A DNA stretch of 64,000 bases, taken from the NCBI GenBank assembly GCA_947496215.1, contig CANMCF010000007.1, positions 62,001 through 126,000 on the forward strand. Direction: 5' to 3'. Position numbers and translations under genes: made by a program. Below, one piece after another: positions 56,722-64,000 of this stretch (within the stretch, counting starts at the first letter, position 1; each line of letters opens with the position of its first letter). The DNA is from an uncultured Bizionia sp. Lineage in GTDB: Bacteria > Bacteroidota > Bacteroidia > Flavobacteriales > Flavobacteriaceae. The notes below the pieces were generated by a model. The model had not been told where the DNA came from, did no database searches, and saw nothing but the letters and a program-made list of their open reading frames with translations.

Positions 56722-56729
56722 TATATTTG
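56722..56729 (+). promoter_or_regulatory. -7 box for the YwqK/MORN-like gene
   Basis: TATATTTG exactly matches TAnnTTTG and lies 18 bp before the ATG at 56748, the same spacing as the heme receptor promoter. A TTG at 56693-56695 is a little far for a -33 element. Confidence 0.45.
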
Positions 56730-56747
56730 CCACAAATACAAGATTTC

Positions 56748-57395
56748 ATGTTAAAGTCACTATCCCTTATCTCCTTCAGTTTTTTATTGCTGCTTTTTTC
56801 CAATGTAGCACCTTCCGACAACGAAGTCCAAAAAAAAGTGCTTAGAAGCGGTCAGTACGACATAGAATGCTATGTGTCTTTAAAGGAAGGGCCCTCTTTT
56901 AAAGAAGACAAGCTATATCATTGGTTTAAGTCAGGAGAAATACATACGTCCAGATATGGGGCAGGAGGACCTGTTTTGCATAAAACCTATTCCAAATTCC
57001 ATAAATCCAATCAGCTGGTGGAACAAGGAGACTTCTTTTATGGACTTAAAGACGGTGTTTGGAAGACTTGGTCTAGAGATGGACAATTAAAGAAAACCTT
57101 GGAATGGCACAAAGGAGAGAAAAGTGGAGATTTCGTTTCATACGATTCCAGTGGAAATATCATTGAAAAAGGACGTTTCAGAAAGAACCAAAAGATAGGA
57201 ACTTGGGTCAACTTAAAAACCAAGGATACCATAGTCTATAAAAAAGGAGAAGTATTTGTCAAAGAAGAAAAACCAAAGAAAGAAGGTTTCTTCAAAAGGC
57301 TTTTTAAAAAGAAAGAAGGTAAAGACAAAAAGAAGAAAAAGGAGAAAAACAAAAATATAAAGACCAAAACACAGGCAAAGTCAAAGAAGAATTAA
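56748..57395 (+). CDS. exported YwqK/MORN-like repeat protein with lysine-rich tail
   Basis: This 215-residue protein starts at ATG 56748 with a hydrophobic signal (SLISFSFLLLLFSNVA). The middle has MORN/YwqK-type repeats: HWFKSGEIHTSRYGAGGP, GDFFYGLKDGVWKTWSRDGQ, WHKGEKSGDFVSYDSSGN and IIEKGRFRKNQKIGTWVN. The last ~50 residues are almost all Lys/Glu with FFKRLFKKKEGKDKKKKK. That could bind acidic polymers or membranes. It lies 61 bp before the GspK-like gene and may head the secretion operon. Family function is not established. Confidence 0.8.
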   Translation: MLKSLSLISFSFLLLLFSNVAPSDNEVQKKVLRSGQYDIECYVSLKEGPSFKEDKLYHWFKSGEIHTSRYGAGGPVLHKTYSKFHKSNQLVEQGDFFYGLKDGVWKTWSRDGQLKKTLEWHKGEKSGDFVSYDSSGNIIEKGRFRKNQKIGTWVNLKTKDTIVYKKGEVFVKEEKPKKEGFFKRLFKKKEGKDKKKKKEKNKNIKTKTQAKSKKN

Positions 57396-57456: not shown

Positions 57457-58695
57457 ATGAAAATCAAAGCCCATTATAAAGCATCTTCTTTAAGCAACGC
57501 CATTTTCCTGTGCTTGATCATATCTATTATATGTGGTAGCTTAGTTATGATATCCCATTACCAAAATGTATTGAATGACAAGTTGGAAATGAGTAATCAT
57601 TTGATAAGTAGAAATAATTCGGCATTCAATTATTACATAAACAATCTCGAAACACTTGTTTTCAATGAAGTTGCTTCTGTGGATGTCTTCGATGATGGGA
57701 TTGATTCTTATGCAGAAAAAAAGAATTGGGGTTTTTATGACATTTTGGTAATCAAAACTGTTTTCAAAAACGATACAATTTCAAAAATAACCTTGATTGG
57801 TGAAAAAGAGAACTCGAGTGATGATTTGGTGTTATATGCAACAGATTATGACAAGCCATTGAAGCTTTCTGGAAAAACAAGGATCTACGGAACACAGAAA
57901 GTGCCAAATGGTAAGACGGAACAAGCATACATAAACAACCAAATAGGTAATGATGTCGTAATAAAGGGGGCACAACGGCAATCTGAGGACAAGCTGCCAA
58001 AAATAGACAAGGTCATCAAAATAAACATAGGAAGCTATGATGTCATTTCCTTGGGGGAAGTGGAAGATGGGGTTATCATCAACAGTTTCGAAAAGGAAAC
58101 TAAAGTAATCGATTTAAATGGTGTAGGGAATCTGAGCAATGTAACTTGCAAGGGCAATCTTATATTGGCATCGAAAAACCCCATAGAAATAGAAGCTACA
58201 GCAAGATTGAACGATGTATTGCTAATGGCCCCAAAAGTGACCATAGATTCAGGCTTCAAGGGGAACGTTCAAATCATAGCAGAGGAGGAAGTCGTAATAA
58301 ACGAAAAAGCTTCGCTCATGTACCCATCAAGCATCTACATCAAAAACGACATCGATTCGGTTTTTGTAAACATAAAAAAGGATGCCAAGTTGGCTGGTGG
58401 TGTTGTTATAGATGGAAATACATACAAAGGTGCTTTGAAGCGCAAATTGATCATAGGCAAAGATGCAACGGTAATTGGAAACATATATTGTTATGGGAGA
58501 ACACAAGTAGAAGGGGAAATAATAGGAAGCATCCATACCGATCGATTTTTTCTGAAAACAAAATCATCAAGCTATGAAAATGTCATTTTGAATGCCATAA
58601 TAAATAGGGATAGTTTGCCAAAGGCCTTTGTAGGCTTGCCATTGTTTGGGAATAAAGGGAACAAAAGAGAATATGTCAGCATTAAAACGTTTTAA
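57457..58695 (+). CDS. large pseudopilin-like protein (GspK-like) with beta-solenoid-like domain
   Basis: The 412-residue product begins with a class III signal-like segment, HYKASSLSNAIFLCLIISII. It has the same layout as the three pseudopilins downstream (KA or KG before the cut, then S-x-L), but Asn stands at mature position 5 where Glu is usual. GspK, the large tip pseudopilin, typically lacks Glu5. The C-terminal two thirds has short beta rungs (VTCKGNLILASKNPIEIEAT, VTIDSGFKGNVQIIAEEEVV, LIIGKDATVIGNIYCYGRTQ) resembling a bactofilin/solenoid. It overlaps the next gene by 23 bp. I read it as the operon's GspK equivalent, which is inference. Confidence 0.75.
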   Translation: MKIKAHYKASSLSNAIFLCLIISIICGSLVMISHYQNVLNDKLEMSNHLISRNNSAFNYYINNLETLVFNEVASVDVFDDGIDSYAEKKNWGFYDILVIKTVFKNDTISKITLIGEKENSSDDLVLYATDYDKPLKLSGKTRIYGTQKVPNGKTEQAYINNQIGNDVVIKGAQRQSEDKLPKIDKVIKINIGSYDVISLGEVEDGVIINSFEKETKVIDLNGVGNLSNVTCKGNLILASKNPIEIEATARLNDVLLMAPKVTIDSGFKGNVQIIAEEEVVINEKASLMYPSSIYIKNDIDSVFVNIKKDAKLAGGVVIDGNTYKGALKRKLIIGKDATVIGNIYCYGRTQVEGEIIGSIHTDRFFLKTKSSSYENVILNAIINRDSLPKAFVGLPLFGNKGNKREYVSIKTF

Positions 58696-59026
58696 ATACA
58701 TCAAGGGCTCTTCCATATTGGAGTCGGTAATTGCAATAGCAATTATATCCATTTGTATTTTGGTGGCGTTTACAATATATGTCAATGTAATAAAACGGAA
58801 TGATCCCATAACATATTATGATGCAAAGCAGAAAGTGGAGTTGCTAACGCAAGAAACGATAGAACAAAAAGACTATGAAAACGATAGCTATGTTTATGAG
58901 AATTATACGATCGCAAAAGAAGTGGAAATAAGAGAGGAGGAAAAGACGGTATTGTTGAAATGGACCATAAAAACTGTGAATAAGGACTATAGTGTGAAAA
59001 AAATAATTCCCTATGGCTATGAATAG
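58673..59026 (+). CDS. GspI-like minor pseudopilin
   Basis: This 117-residue prepilin-like protein starts at ATG 58673, within the end of the previous gene. The cleavage site is IKG then SSILESVIAIAIISICILVA, with Glu at mature position 5 and the hydrophobic helix. The small C-terminal domain ends VNKDYSVKKIIPYGYE. Size and position fit GspI. It is translated by overlap with both neighbours. Its function would be in the tip of a type II secretion pseudopilus. Confidence 0.82.
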   Translation: MSALKRFKYIKGSSILESVIAIAIISICILVAFTIYVNVIKRNDPITYYDAKQKVELLTQETIEQKDYENDSYVYENYTIAKEVEIREEEKTVLLKWTIKTVNKDYSVKKIIPYGYE

Positions 59027-59501
59027 ACAGTTAAAGGGGTTTACGATACTAGAAGCCTTGTTAAGCCTTTTGATACTGAGCATAATAATAAGCTTGACCT
59101 ATTTGATGTTCAACCTATTCAATAGGCAAATGCTGCTTTTCGAAAAGGAAAATACGCAAATGTTACAATATAATCTATTTAACAAGACCATAAAATATGA
59201 TATGAATGCTGCAAACGGTTTTGAAATGGAAGGCAATAAGTTGCTCTTGAAAAAGTATGATGATGATGATGATGTTGGCTATAGTTTCGAGAAAATGCAC
59301 ATATTGAGAGCACATTATGAAACCGTGGATACATTTAGACTCTTGGTAACGGATTACAAGTTATTTGAAGGAGAGGAGCAAGAAGAGACAAGAAGGTTGG
59401 AAGTATCGTTGAAACTATTGGAGGAAACAATAGTGGCTCATTATTTTTTAAGTCAAAACAATGCAGAAAGAATAAATAAAAAATATTTCCATGAAGATTG
59501 A
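59013..59501 (+). CDS. GspJ-like minor pseudopilin
   Basis: This 162-residue prepilin-like protein has the cut LKG then FTILEALLSLLILSIIISLT with Glu5. ATG at 59013 gives MAMNRQ; ATG at 59019 is equally possible. The first overlaps the previous gene by 14 bp. The C-terminal part contains an acidic run (DDDDDVGYSFEKM) coded by repeated GAT. Position between the GspI-like and GspF genes supports GspJ. Confidence 0.8.
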   Translation: MAMNRQLKGFTILEALLSLLILSIIISLTYLMFNLFNRQMLLFEKENTQMLQYNLFNKTIKYDMNAANGFEMEGNKLLLKKYDDDDDVGYSFEKMHILRAHYETVDTFRLLVTDYKLFEGEEQEETRRLEVSLKLLEETIVAHYFLSQNNAERINKKYFHED

Positions 59502-60615
59502 TGTTGATTCATATACTAAGGAAGTCAAGAAAAAAGAGGCAAGGCAATTTAATTTAAAATTGAATAGTTCTCTTTTGAAGCGCTTTCCTGACAAGCAGAA
59601 AGAAGACTTCTATAGGGAGTTTTCCACGCTTATCAAATCTGGAGTGGATTTCAATCAAGCATTGAAAATTTTGACGGAACAACAAAAATCCAAATATATT
59701 CGTTCGGTGTATGAAGAGATCAACGATGCCGTCGTCAAAGGAAAACCATTGCATGAAACCATACAGGGATATCCCTTCTTTTCACCTTACGAATACCATA
59801 GCATAAAAATTGGGGAGGAAACCAGAAGGTTGCCAGAAATATTTGATCAACTACAAAGGTTCTATGCTCGAAAAATTAAAATGAAACGACAAATAGTCTC
59901 AGTATTGGCCTACCCGGTCTTTGTGTTGCTAATTACATTTGCCGTGCTATATTTCATGCTTAACTATGTTGTTCCCATGTTTGCTTCAGTATTCCAACAA
60001 TTTGGAAAGGAGTTGCCGGACATAACAAAGTTTGTCGTGAAATTATCAGATAATTTTAGCAGCATTGCGTTGGTAATTGGTGTTGTGATGTTGTCATTGT
60101 TTGTTATGCAACGCATTCTTAAAAACAACGAGAAATATAAGTCCATAATGGCTTCGTTACTTCTGAAGATACCATTTTTTGGCAAGCTCATTCAAAAAAT
60201 ATACCTCGCAAGGTTCTGTCAATCATTGAGTTTGTTGTTGTCTGCAAAGACACCATTGATCACTGCTTTGGATTTGACAGAAAAGATGATAAGCTTCTAT
60301 CCAATAAGGCAAGCAATTTCCAAAAGCAAAAAGGATATATTAAAAGGAGAAACATTGACAAACAGTTTGAAAAAGCATAAGTTTTTCACGCCCAAAATAA
60401 TATCTTTGACCTCTATAGGAGAACAAATTAACGAATTGGATAAAATGTACGATGGATTGGCCAACCAATATAATGAAGACATAGATCATTCTACCAAGAT
60501 GATTGGTACTATTTTGGAACCTTTGATGATTTTAATCATAGGAGGAATCGTTGGTTTCATAATGGTGGCAATGTATTCGCCTTTGTTCGACTTAAGTAAA
60601 ATCATTGAAAATTAA
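59491..60615 (+). CDS. GspF/PilC-type inner-membrane platform protein
   Basis: This is a 374-residue type II secretion platform protein. It has two T2SSF domains: FYREFSTLIKSGVDFNQALK (about 42-165) and FCQSLSLLLSAKTPLITALD (about 245-365). Three membrane spans are seen: LAYPVFVLLITFAVLYFML near 155, SIALVIGVVMLSLFVM near 190, and LMILIIGGIVGFIMVAMYSP near the C-terminus. It overlaps the GspJ-like gene by 11 bp. It anchors the ATPase encoded at 61590. Confidence 0.93.
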   Translation: MKIDVDSYTKEVKKKEARQFNLKLNSSLLKRFPDKQKEDFYREFSTLIKSGVDFNQALKILTEQQKSKYIRSVYEEINDAVVKGKPLHETIQGYPFFSPYEYHSIKIGEETRRLPEIFDQLQRFYARKIKMKRQIVSVLAYPVFVLLITFAVLYFMLNYVVPMFASVFQQFGKELPDITKFVVKLSDNFSSIALVIGVVMLSLFVMQRILKNNEKYKSIMASLLLKIPFFGKLIQKIYLARFCQSLSLLLSAKTPLITALDLTEKMISFYPIRQAISKSKKDILKGETLTNSLKKHKFFTPKIISLTSIGEQINELDKMYDGLANQYNEDIDHSTKMIGTILEPLMILIIGGIVGFIMVAMYSPLFDLSKIIEN

Positions 60616-60692: not shown

Positions 60693-61109
60693 ATGATAAG
60701 GACAAAAAAGAAAAAACACCATTTAAAAGCCTACTCTTTATCCGAAATACTAATAGTACTTTGCATCATCGGGATTTTAATTTATTTGGTATTGCCAAGT
60801 CAAGCACCAGTTGTGGCAATGGCGAAATCAACGGAGGCACAAAATATGCTTACCATGGTGCATAGCTTGGAGAAAAATCATTTTTACAGACATTCTAAAT
60901 ACTCTTCGGATCTCAAGGAAATAAACTTCGAGCAAGTTGCCACCATTGCAGAAGGAGGGCAGGCAGTATACAAAATAGAAATTATTGAAGCTTCTTTAAA
61001 TGGCTTCAAGGCGACAGCAACTTCCCTTCAGGATTTTGACGGTGATGGTATTTACAATACGTGGCAGATAGATCAGAACAGAAAACTAGAAGAAATAATC
61101 AAGGATTAA
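60693..61109 (+). CDS. GspG-like major pseudopilin
   Basis: This 138-residue prepilin-like protein has a basic leader (MIRTKKKKHHLKA) cut before YSLSEILIVLCIIGILIYLV, with Glu at mature position 5. The C-terminal domain is preceded by NMLTMVHSLEKNHFYRHSKY and ends with a possible calcium loop, DFDGDGIYNTWQIDQ, as in GspG proteins that bind Ca2+. The 77 bp before it hold no gene. It is followed after one base by the peptidase gene. Confidence 0.85.
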   Translation: MIRTKKKKHHLKAYSLSEILIVLCIIGILIYLVLPSQAPVVAMAKSTEAQNMLTMVHSLEKNHFYRHSKYSSDLKEINFEQVATIAEGGQAVYKIEIIEASLNGFKATATSLQDFDGDGIYNTWQIDQNRKLEEIIKD

Positions 61110-61110
61110 A

Positions 61111-61593
61111 TTGGAGCTTCATATAACCATTTCTATTTTGGCAGTCGTATTGCTTTTCGTTTTTTTTCAAGATTTGAAGAACAGAAGCATTCATATCATA
61201 TTACCCATCCTTATTTTTGTTTTGGGATTACTGATAAATTACATGTCTTTGGATTTGAGTTTCGAAGTTGTCTTGTACAATGCAATTTTCATTGTAATTA
61301 ACATTGTTGGCATAGTCGTCTATTTCTCCATTAAAAATAAAGCAATGACAAATCCCATCGATAAATCAATAGGAATGGGGGATATATCCTTTTTCATAGC
61401 CATTGTACCATTGTTCAACTTTCGATCCTTCATATTGTTTTTCATATCTGGGTTGGTGTTTTCTTTGATGGCACATGGCATATATTCATTGTTCGAAAAA
61501 AATGCTACGATACCATTGGCCGGATATCTATCACTTTTTTTGATACTCGTTCTAGGAGCCAAACACATATTAAAAATTGACTTGGCATTTTGA
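61111..61593 (+). CDS. short prepilin peptidase (A24 family, GspO/PilD-like)
   Basis: This 160-residue polytopic membrane protein is most likely the leader peptidase for the pseudopilins. The TTG start lies one base after the GspG-like stop. The first catalytic Asp is in FFQDLKNRSIHIILPIL and the second in SIGMGDISFFIAI (GxGD). About six membrane segments are visible. The N-terminal methylase region with its cysteine motif found in full-length PilD is missing. It therefore resembles the short TadV/CpaA form, which does not methylate. Confidence 0.83.
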   Translation: MELHITISILAVVLLFVFFQDLKNRSIHIILPILIFVLGLLINYMSLDLSFEVVLYNAIFIVINIVGIVVYFSIKNKAMTNPIDKSIGMGDISFFIAIVPLFNFRSFILFFISGLVFSLMAHGIYSLFEKNATIPLAGYLSLFLILVLGAKHILKIDLAF

Positions 61594-63002
61594 AGAATCT
61601 AGACAACATACAACAATTGAGTTTGAGCGTTGCCTTGCAACAGTCCATAAGCTCGGAGATAGCCAATCATTTCTTGATCATACCAAAGGAGTTCGAAGAT
61701 GATGAAATGTCTTTTTACATTGATGAGACGAATAGTAGTCAATTAAGTAGCATAAAGGATGAACTGAAATTGATTTTTGATAAAGCCATAGTTTTGGATC
61801 CTTTGGAGTCTTCTTTAATCAGAAAAGCATTGTCGACCTATTATAGGACCAATGACAACAAACCCAAAATGGTGTCCTATGGGAATGATTTTCTAGAAGA
61901 ACTCATTTTTGAGGCAAAACATATAAATGCAAGTGACATTCATATAGAGATATATGAGGAAGATGTGAGAGTACGCTTGAGAATAGATGGACATCTGATA
62001 GAGAAAAATCACATCAAAAAGGATTACTATTTGGAGTTGATCAATCAGATCAAGATAAAATCCAATCTGGACATTACAGAAAAAAGACTGCCACAAGATG
62101 GAAGGATAGAGTACGAGGATTTCGACATAAGGGTTTCCATTTTGCCAACCCATCACGGCGAAAAAGTGGTCATGAGGATTCTTGGTAGAGATGCATCCCA
62201 TTTGGACATAACCCAATTGGGTTTTGAAAAGGAAGAGTTGTCGTTGTATTTGGAGGCTGTTAAAAAAACGAATGGCATCGTATTGATAAGTGGTCCAACG
62301 GGATCGGGTAAGACAACGACACTATATGGTACGCTAAAATATCTCAATGACATAAAGAGGAACATCGTAACGGTGGAAGATCCCATAGAATATACATTGA
62401 AAGGGATCAATCAAGTACAATTGAAAGAAGACATCGGTTTGACGTTTTCATCTGCATTGCGCTCTTTCTTGAGACAAGATCCAGACATTATAATGTTGGG
62501 AGAAATCAGGGATGGAGAAACAGCACAAATGGCAATTAGGGCATCTTTGACCGGTCATTTGGTTTTATCCACTATACATACGAATTCTGCAACAGGAACC
62601 ATCTCCAGACTAGTAGATATGGGAGTACCTTCTTTCTTAATAGCAGAAACAATAAACATATCGGTGGCACAACGCTTGGTAAGAACCTTATGCAGTACCT
62701 GTAAGCAGGAAGCTGTTTTCAATGAGGAGGATTTACCACATTCGTTTAAAATGCCAAATCAGATTGAAACACATTTTGTAGCAGAAGGTTGCGATGTATG
62801 TTACCATACAGGATATAGAGGTAGACGTGCCATCTATGAGATATTGCCAATAAACAAAGATGTGGCAGATGCCATAAAGAAGAATACTTTGGAACAAACA
62901 AATTTTATTAACAACAATAGACTTTCAGACAAGGCTTTCGATTTGCTATCGAAGGGTTTGACTTCTTTGGACGAAATCTATCCAATGCTTATAAATTCAT
63001 AA
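61590..63002 (+). CDS. GspE/PilB-type secretion ATPase
   Basis: This 470-residue cytoplasmic hexameric ATPase starts with TTG at 61590 and overlaps the peptidase stop by 4 bp. The N1-like domain is reduced to about 100 residues. The core has IHIEIYEEDVRVRLRIDGHL, Walker A ISGPTGSGKTTTLYG, Asp box TVEDPIEY, Walker B DPDIIMLGEIRDGE, and the His box LSTIHTNSATG. The C-terminal zinc module keeps its four cysteines (LCSTCK, GCDVCYHTGYRGR). It powers pseudopilus assembly with the GspF protein. Confidence 0.95.
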   Translation: MKNLDNIQQLSLSVALQQSISSEIANHFLIIPKEFEDDEMSFYIDETNSSQLSSIKDELKLIFDKAIVLDPLESSLIRKALSTYYRTNDNKPKMVSYGNDFLEELIFEAKHINASDIHIEIYEEDVRVRLRIDGHLIEKNHIKKDYYLELINQIKIKSNLDITEKRLPQDGRIEYEDFDIRVSILPTHHGEKVVMRILGRDASHLDITQLGFEKEELSLYLEAVKKTNGIVLISGPTGSGKTTTLYGTLKYLNDIKRNIVTVEDPIEYTLKGINQVQLKEDIGLTFSSALRSFLRQDPDIIMLGEIRDGETAQMAIRASLTGHLVLSTIHTNSATGTISRLVDMGVPSFLIAETINISVAQRLVRTLCSTCKQEAVFNEEDLPHSFKMPNQIETHFVAEGCDVCYHTGYRGRRAIYEILPINKDVADAIKKNTLEQTNFINNNRLSDKAFDLLSKGLTSLDEIYPMLINS

Positions 63003-63008
63003 AAAAAA

Positions 63009-64000
63009 ATGCCCTACAAGTACATATTGACAACCGTTTTTATTTGTTTTCTCAGTTTAGGACATTCACAGTCCAATACAGTGGATTTTCAAAATGAATT
63101 GGAAGAACTTTCCAAAACAAAAGAAGGGCTCAATGATGCCATTAGAATCGATTTAACAGGATTGACTCTCTATGATTTCATTGGTACTTTGGCTGGCGAA
63201 CACAAACTAAACGTGAGTGTGGATTCGCAATTAAATCAGATGGTAACTGGAAATTTTTTCGATATTCCAATAAAGGAAGTCTTCTTGTTTTTGGTCAAAA
63301 AGCATGACTTGGAAGCAAGTATCTCCAATACCATTATTGTTTTCAACAAGAAAAAAGAAGAAGTTGTTGTTGAAAAACCGAAACCACTGAAGGCAATAGA
63401 TGTCAGCTTTAACAAACAAAATCAATTTTTATCGGTTAAATTGAAAAACGATTCCTTGCCAAGGGTTGCGCAAGCCATAACGGATGCTTCCATGCGAAAT
63501 GTGGTTTTGGCTCCAAACGTAAAGGCAGAAAAAGTGTCTGCTTACATTTTAAACAGACCTTTTGACCAAGTCATGGAAATGATTGCAAAGTCCAATGACT
63601 TGGTATTGACCAAAGATGAAAACGAAAATTACTTTTTGGAAAAGGACACTACAACAAAAGAAGATCCAAAAAAAGCGTCAAGTTCCAGAAGAGGAGTTCG
63701 AAAGGGTAAGAAGGGGAACAGTTATGCCAAAGGTGAATCCGGGAGTTTTGTAATAGAAATAAGCGAACAAGGATTTTTGAATGTGAAGGCTTTTGAAGCT
63801 GATGCCGCAGATATGTTGACGGAAGCAGCAGAAAAACTACATATAAACTTCTTTATGTACAACACACCAGAAGGAGTCAATACGACTTTGGTAGCCAATG
63901 GAATAACATTCGACAACTTACTGAATCATTTGTTTAAAGGCGAGAAATACACGTACAAGAAAACAGAGGATTTATATTTAATAGGGGAGCATAAGACAGA
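63009..64000 (+). CDS. GspD-like secretin (3' end outside window)
   Basis: The first 330 codons of an outer-membrane secretin lie in the window. The signal peptide (YILTTVFICFLSLGHSQS) is followed by an N0/STN-type domain (IRIDLTGLTLYDFIGTLAGE, GNFFDIPIKEVFLFLVKK). Repeated N1-type domains come next, for example SVKLKNDSLPRVAQAITDAS. A basic Ser/Lys linker (SSSRRGVRKGKKG) lies near residue 220. The multimerising barrel is beyond the edge. It starts 6 bp after the ATPase gene and would be the exit pore of the system. Confidence 0.88.
   Translation, partial: MPYKYILTTVFICFLSLGHSQSNTVDFQNELEELSKTKEGLNDAIRIDLTGLTLYDFIGTLAGEHKLNVSVDSQLNQMVTGNFFDIPIKEVFLFLVKKHDLEASISNTIIVFNKKKEEVVVEKPKPLKAIDVSFNKQNQFLSVKLKNDSLPRVAQAITDASMRNVVLAPNVKAEKVSAYILNRPFDQVMEMIAKSNDLVLTKDENENYFLEKDTTTKEDPKKASSSRRGVRKGKKGNSYAKGESGSFVIEISEQGFLNVKAFEADAADMLTEAAEKLHINFFMYNTPEGVNTTLVANGITFDNLLNHLFKGEKYTYKKTEDLYLIGEHKT

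Follow-up and report, generated by a model that had tools for sequence, protein, structure and literature searches.

A putative tip pseudopilin with a modelled beta-helix heads a type IV-filament secretion operon in Flavobacteriaceae

The DNA analysed, called the window here, is a 64,000-nucleotide stretch of an uncultured Bizionia sp. (assembly GCA_947496215.1, contig CANMCF010000007.1, positions 62,001 to 126,000). Its open reading frame at 57457-58695 on the plus strand was present as listed, starts with ATG and encodes a protein of 412 residues, termed X in the following. We conclude, with a probability of about 0.8, that X is the K-position minor pseudopilin, the first or tip filament subunit, of a type IV-filament secretion machine of Bacteroidota; the tip position is what we infer. 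X probably caps a short internal filament of a poorly known export machine of Flavobacteriaceae and their relatives. The gene stands at the head of an overlapping run with the order X-I-J-F-G-peptidase-E-D, in which the overlaps measure 23 nucleotides from the first ATG of I to the end of X, 14 between I and J and 11 between J and F; G, the peptidase, E and D come next.

The leader of X was compared with those of the pseudopilins downstream. KASSLSNAIFL of X aligns with KGSSILESVIA of I (58646), KGFTILEALLS of J (59013) and KAYSLSEILIV of G (60693), and the predicted cut of X, between KA and SSLSN, coincides in this alignment with the prepilin cuts of all three. An earlier note, made from the DNA letters, had proposed this alignment, which was confirmed. 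The leader features of the pilin superfamily are present, namely a short basic leader, Gly or Ala at −1 and a hydrophobic helix past the cut. Distant relatives of X in the phylum carry classical leaders with Gly at −1, for instance EEG before the cut and SALxxVL after it. At position +5 the X of the window has Asn, not Glu. In the family alignment of 78 sequences (own included), 76 had a residue at this position: Phe in 34, Leu in 15, Tyr in 12, Asn in eight, Met in three, Gln in two, and Ser and Ile in one each. Glu occurred in none, which bears out the claim that X lacks Glu5 as GspK does.

Kinship to prepilins was also seen at the profile level. When the X profile was run against the 4,736 open reading frames of 100 loci, seven proteins shorter than 300 residues matched: six prepilins, assigned to I or G by sequence, and one bactofilin with a Pfam score of 92.7 bits. 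These matches mirror the two halves of X. In hhalign comparisons the N-terminal X profile reached I at E 1.8e-5 (probability 78%, cut in register) and J at E 0.0035 (probability 9%). For two membrane proteins of the operon that served as controls, y161 and y175, the E values were 0.29 and 0.033. Among ten distant relatives scanned, PilX_N matched four at E≤0.3 (best 2.9e-5), and the NCBIfam model T2SS_GspK matched one over residues 12-125 (E 8.9e-4, 18.9 bits versus a cut-off of 130). Sequence searches of the PDB yielded nothing useful with X itself, and the X profile brought up two weak entries only, for an ATP synthase subunit and for bactofilin A.

A full-length model of X was built from ten sequences, the window and nine loci of 53-83% identity. 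It consists of a long helix, antiparallel strands up to residue 117, a poorly predicted stretch, parallel beta-helix strands over about residues 195-364 and a strand at 405-411. Modelled alone, residues 1-128 reached a predicted local distance difference test (pLDDT) score of 80. In a structural second look at this shorter model, rows 1-5 were all pilins or pseudopilins, with Z scores of 7.7 (EpsI), 6.7 (TT_C0855), 6.5 (XcpV), 6.5 over 102 residues (the XcpGHIJK filament) and 6.4 (EpsI); the best other protein had a Z of 5.4. By these models the N-terminus of X is a helix packed on an antiparallel sheet, a pilin-like fold, and not the ordinary signal anchor unrelated to pseudopilins that the earlier note had named as the outcome against it.

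Residues 192-381 are, in the full-length model, a parallel beta-helix with bactofilin-like rungs. The ten-residue mean pLDDT of the beta-helix was 66-93 over residues 211-320 and lower outside, and VIA-align superposed it on known beta-helices with Z up to 14.0 over 153 residues (root mean square deviation 2.5). The Pfam Bactofilin model matched residues 306-371 at E 4.5e-6, the strongest curated match of X. Its 27.3 bits lie under the PF04519 cut-off of 27.9, and X did not pass as a bactofilin by that family test. The same model matched 39 of 53 X sequences at E≤0.01. Cys345, following Tyr344 in the beta-helix, is kept in 71 of 78 aligned sequences. The modelled beta-helix, in place of the helical insertion of GspK, agrees with the earlier suggestion that the C-terminal rungs resemble a solenoid rather than the GspK fold. 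After residue 62 no long helix was predicted, in a model whose residues 115-188 have a pLDDT below 50. The last strand, predicted within a low-confidence stretch, may rejoin the pilin sheet in the manner of ComZ. The parts of X are as follows.

57457..58695, plus strand: X, putative K-position pseudopilin with modelled beta-helix, 412 residues (sequence, profile and model evidence)
57457..57483, plus strand: leader of X, MKIKAHYKA, predicted cut after Ala9 (Lys8 in 59 and Ala9 in 64 of 78 aligned rows)
57484..57642, plus strand: predicted N-terminal pilin helix of X, residues 10-62, without Glu5 (helix 2-62 in both models)
57670..57807, plus strand: predicted antiparallel sheet of the pilin domain of X, residues 72-117 (both models and the structural second look)
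58030..58599, plus strand: predicted beta-helix of X, residues 192-381 (full-length model; VIA-align)
58372..58569, plus strand: bactofilin-like rungs of X, residues 306-371 (Pfam PF04519, under cut-off)
58669..58689, plus strand: predicted last strand of X, residues 405-411 (low-confidence model stretch; C-terminal residues conserved)

The assignment to the K position draws on the rest of the genome. No GspK over cut-off was found in it, which makes X the likely K-position, tip subunit. All three N_methyl matches of the genome fall within this operon; only that of J passes the cut-off, those of I and G staying below it. A large minor pilin with a hydrophobic residue at +5 has been proposed as the signature of a first subunit (PMC5207764; this and the other papers cited are used through the parts available to us). 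With a large pilin without Glu5, Glu5-bearing partners I and J and no other K candidate in the genome, the operon fits that signature. X shares with GspK the lack of Glu5 within a set that has the Glu5 partners I and J. We nevertheless would not file X in the GspK family, because the curated GspK model was not reached and the helical domain was not seen, though X would work like GspK. PF03934 (T2SSK) was tried as a marker of GspK and dropped. The current Pfam model is a piece of 63 positions that matches 174 of 395 genomes, and the matching frames, among those listed, were mostly of about 700 or 150-200 residues. We take these frames to be helix-hairpin-helix proteins, so that the matches are uninformative on GspK.

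The remaining genes of the run were identified with Pfam and NCBIfam, firmly for F, E and D and more weakly for the peptidase, I, J and G.

58646..59026, plus strand: I, minor pseudopilin, GspI/ComGE-like by weak matches; first ATG at 58673
59013..59501, plus strand: J, minor pseudopilin, GspJ/ComGF-like (N_methyl E 1.1e-4; ComGF E 6.7e-11, under cut-off)
59491..60615, plus strand: F, inner-membrane platform protein (T2SSF E 6.4e-47)
60693..61109, plus strand: G, major pseudopilin (PilA and GspG models weak; N_methyl weak)
61111..61593, plus strand: prepilin peptidase, short form, with GMGD motif (Peptidase_A24 E 7.3e-5, under cut-off)
61590..63002, plus strand: E, assembly ATPase (T2SSE E 3.5e-123; sole genome match over cut-off)
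63009..64000, plus strand: D, secretin, continuing beyond the window end (Secretin E 2.5e-34)

The GxGD motif of the operon peptidase is present in 31 of 31 sequences, own included. In the own genome (locus L040), full-length D has 641 residues with a Secretin domain and is followed by a 394-residue protein with a PilN match and by proteins of 175, 324 and 161 residues. Directly 5′ of X, at 56727-57395, the window encodes a MORN_2-like protein (under cut-off), matched by profile in 15 of 80 loci, those of the layout termed A below.

X was found in 78 of 397 genomes of Flavobacteriaceae, and a stray fusion confined to one genome was rejected on this count. Across the phylum the X profile matched 34 of 395 genomes, a few of them by short bactofilin-like matches only. 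One hundred loci were read (80 from the family, 20 from the phylum), 98 of which had an X of more than 300 residues. F lay at most 4 kilobases (kb) downstream of X in 94 of these 98, and in one of the other four it lies at the end of another contig. Between X and F, by a strict pattern, at least one Glu5 prepilin was found in 94/94 loci and at least two in 84/94; the ten loci with fewer than two include truncated start calls and one Asp5. Homologues of X thus do have prepilin neighbours, and their absence, the other outcome that the earlier note had named as refuting its idea, did not occur. For co-occurrence in the 397 genomes, X at E≤1e-20 was compared with T2SSF, and two genomes with weak bactofilin-like matches (G178 and G314) were not counted as having X. 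Both were present in 75 genomes, X only in one (G293, 76% complete), F only in two (G130 and G212) and neither in 319.

The loci fall into two layouts. Layout A has the order of the window. In layout B, genes of the 324-type and 161-type precede X-I-J-F, and the half with G, peptidase, E and D is adjacent, divergent or further off; in layout B genomes, E was found in all 15 that were checked. Five genomes (G363, G138, G148, G353 and G377) have two X matches and three or four F-domain matches versus the usual two, and probably carry two machines per cell.

The genes upstream of X in layout B include a recurrent class of large proteins. The loci were scanned with an iterated RHS profile, and 15 of 15 matches checked carry Rhs_assc_core, 14 of them over cut-off. 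With equal flanks, RHS matches occurred upstream of X in 38 of 94 loci versus downstream of F in four; a first count with unequal flanks had given 42 and four of 94. Loci with upstream matches only and downstream matches only numbered 4 and 0 in layout A, 24 and 2 in layout B and 9 and 1 in the phylum set. In layout A the operon itself takes up the sequence downstream of F, so that only layout B and the phylum set allow a fair comparison, which gave 33 loci versus three (sign test 2.3e-7), in counts that ignore kinship, with loci related by ancestry and some genomes giving two. Over whole stretches, 46 upstream matches were co-directional with X and five opposite; all four of layout A were opposite.

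The association extends beyond the loci. Rhs_assc_core was detected genome-wide in 75 of 76 genomes with X versus 69 of 321 without, in counts uncorrected for genome size. In 20 congeneric comparisons the X genome had more copies in 19, with one tie; in every pair the second-drawn genome is the one with X, so that a single direction is covered, one genome (G006) occurs twice, and the genera of the first members are deduced. Twenty upstream stretches of 14-20 kb were taken from layout B, one of them partly; 13 had been picked for a known E on the far side, the other seven without this knowledge. RHS-profile matches occurred in 19 of the 20. RHS/YD-repeat proteins with Rhs_assc_core cluster 5′ of X among loci L195-L214, for example L199:13064-16906 and L200:6783-11744. 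Six upstream proteins were scanned. They comprised a DUF6443/RHS-repeat protein with Rhs_assc_core, a protein that combines PKD with a type IX sorting domain, a third with an AXH/Hint-like region and three without a match in Pfam or NCBIfam. RHS proteins are known as polymorphic toxins, and those found here are candidate cargo of the machine. The link between X and RHS may reflect cargo, shared mobility or a shared lifestyle. As a tentative proposal, which we consider possible though doubtful, the X-I-J-F-G-E-D machine could be a dedicated exporter of giant RHS/YD-repeat proteins, with the beta-helix of X as the piston head engaging them. In the literature consulted, largely papers free of subscription, neither RHS cargo nor such a tip design has been assigned to type II or type IVa pilus-derived systems.

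Other genes near X in layout B were recorded as well. The PKD protein, with its type IX secretion sorting domain, lies upstream of X at L198:13522-17358 and brings two export routes together in a single locus. In 48/57 layout B and 0/19 layout A loci, a lipoprotein-like protein of about 240 residues is encoded 5′ of X (L198:17485-18219 and equivalents); the one scanned had no Pfam or NCBIfam match. Runs of GIGT-type proteins (for example L195:11462-19363, L209:16395-19534 and L204:539-5011) lie between the 324-type and 161-type genes in eight of 55 layout B loci. Counted by profile or loose motif, there are one to nine per locus, 24 in all, of 271-482 residues. They appear tail-fibre-like, with a coiled-coil-like end by eye, and two that were scanned had no Pfam or NCBIfam match.

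Several observations weigh against X as a K-position tip pseudopilin. The full-length model has a mean pLDDT of 58, with residues 362-403, like 115-188, below 50. The Z scores of 6-8, all below 8, are middling by the tool's own note, and with either model Foldseek found nothing at E≤0.001, its top ranks going to unrelated proteins. ComZ and GspK do not figure in the listed rows of the full-length model, an absence without weight either way. X itself matched no prepilin model in Pfam or NCBIfam (in NCBIfam nothing at E≤1), and the PilX_N and T2SS_GspK matches are confined to distant relatives, all under cut-off. The residue at −1 of the cut is Ala, not Gly, and the Asn at +5 of the window's X is not hydrophobic. 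First-subunit genes are said to sit at the 3′ end in the type II secretion system (T2SS) (PMC5207764), and X opens the pilin set. The own genome has a second, weak T2SSE match elsewhere (23.5 bits, under cut-off), and one family genome (G150) has three F matches but one listed X.

Three other explanations were weighed. X could be a DNA receptor of the ComZ type and the machine a competence pilus instead of an exporter. X has an architecture like that of ComZ, which binds DNA (PMC6561018), and models of DNA uptake or ComG are among those that D and J match. In an analysis that included no search aimed at competence genes, we hold this to be improbable, since the Cytophaga hutchinsonii system is involved in cellulose use and has been interpreted as secreting proteins (PMC5553014), the genome yielded no retraction ATPase over cut-off and the linked genes encode large secreted-looking proteins. 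It is quite improbable that X, as a true minor pilin, occupies a position within the filament or at its base, or acts as an exported adhesin-type pilin. A Shewanella pilin with a bactofilin motif was indeed called an adhesin (PMC4376143), but the missing Glu5 and the bulky domain oppose incorporation into the shaft, as argued for GspK (PMC5207764), and a steric argument against the shaft was made for ComZ (PMC6561018). Finally, an ordinary membrane-anchored beta-helix protein, bactofilin-like or an adhesin with a signal anchor and merely located in the operon, would account for Bactofilin as the strongest curated match and for the absence of Pfam and NCBIfam prepilin matches, but is very improbable given the conserved leader in register with I, J and G, the reach of the X profile to I and G, the classical leaders of distant relatives, the pilin-like model of residues 1-128 and the lack of another K candidate in the own genome.

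As the tip pseudopilin of this machine, X would enter the inner membrane as a prepilin and, judging from the motif, would be cut after Ala9 by the operon peptidase (61111). The lack of Glu5 and the bulky domain would make the first position in the filament the best fit for X. X, I and J would form a priming tip complex on which G would polymerise, driven by E and F. The beta-helix would replace the helical domain of GspK, placed after strands of the pilin sheet. It may sit at that end of the pseudopilus which faces the secretin D and contact cargo or channel there. X would then supply a likely tip subunit for the so-called T2SS of Bacteroidota, which may be an independent pilus-derived machine (PMC6668835), and it suggests the use of a beta-helix tip by a filament of the secretion type. 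With the RHS link added, an orphan machine gains a testable cargo, with a possible meaning for competition between bacteria.

X was finally compared with described systems. In the same, largely subscription-free literature, a PilX/GspK protein with a beta-helix was undescribed for Bacteroidetes. The earlier claim of an undescribed tip type stands in part: the family is new, and precedents are found in ComZ (PMC6561018), the Shewanella adhesin with a bactofilin motif (PMC4376143) and Fjoh_0611-0613 of Flavobacterium johnsoniae, listed as minor pseudopilins (PMC5553014). The tip pseudopilins GspK, XcpX and PilX are, like X, large, without Glu5, partnered by I and J and built on a pilin domain, a modelled one in X; X differs in its modelled beta-helix instead of a helical insertion, its place as first and not last gene of the pilin set and its Ala at −1. 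The Shewanella protein, PilBac5 (SO_0850), compared by description, is encoded in a minor pilin cluster. The T2SS of C. hutchinsonii and F. johnsoniae is by gene content the same kind of machine, and F, G, peptidase, E and D of F. johnsoniae are Fjoh_0614-0618, in the order of the window (PMC5553014). In the available parts of that description K is unassigned, a beta-helix is unmentioned and chu_3202 is an unassigned member of the cluster; by gene order, Fjoh_0611 or chu_3202 would hold the place of X. The Bacteroidetes "T2SS" clusters with type IVa pili and may be a novel secretion system, in a survey whose consulted parts do not treat tip subunit and cargo (PMC6668835). The closest described architecture is ComZ of Thermus thermophilus, which, like X as modelled, has a GspK-like pilin domain and a large beta-solenoid and was argued to be a tip subunit (PMC6561018). 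Compared by description, ComZ serves in DNA uptake with a solenoid of about 380 residues, whereas X has 412 residues in total and belongs to a secretion-type operon. The solenoid of ComZ is inserted between the penultimate and last strands, the strand order in the model of X would allow the same, and X is a new family of the ComZ kind.
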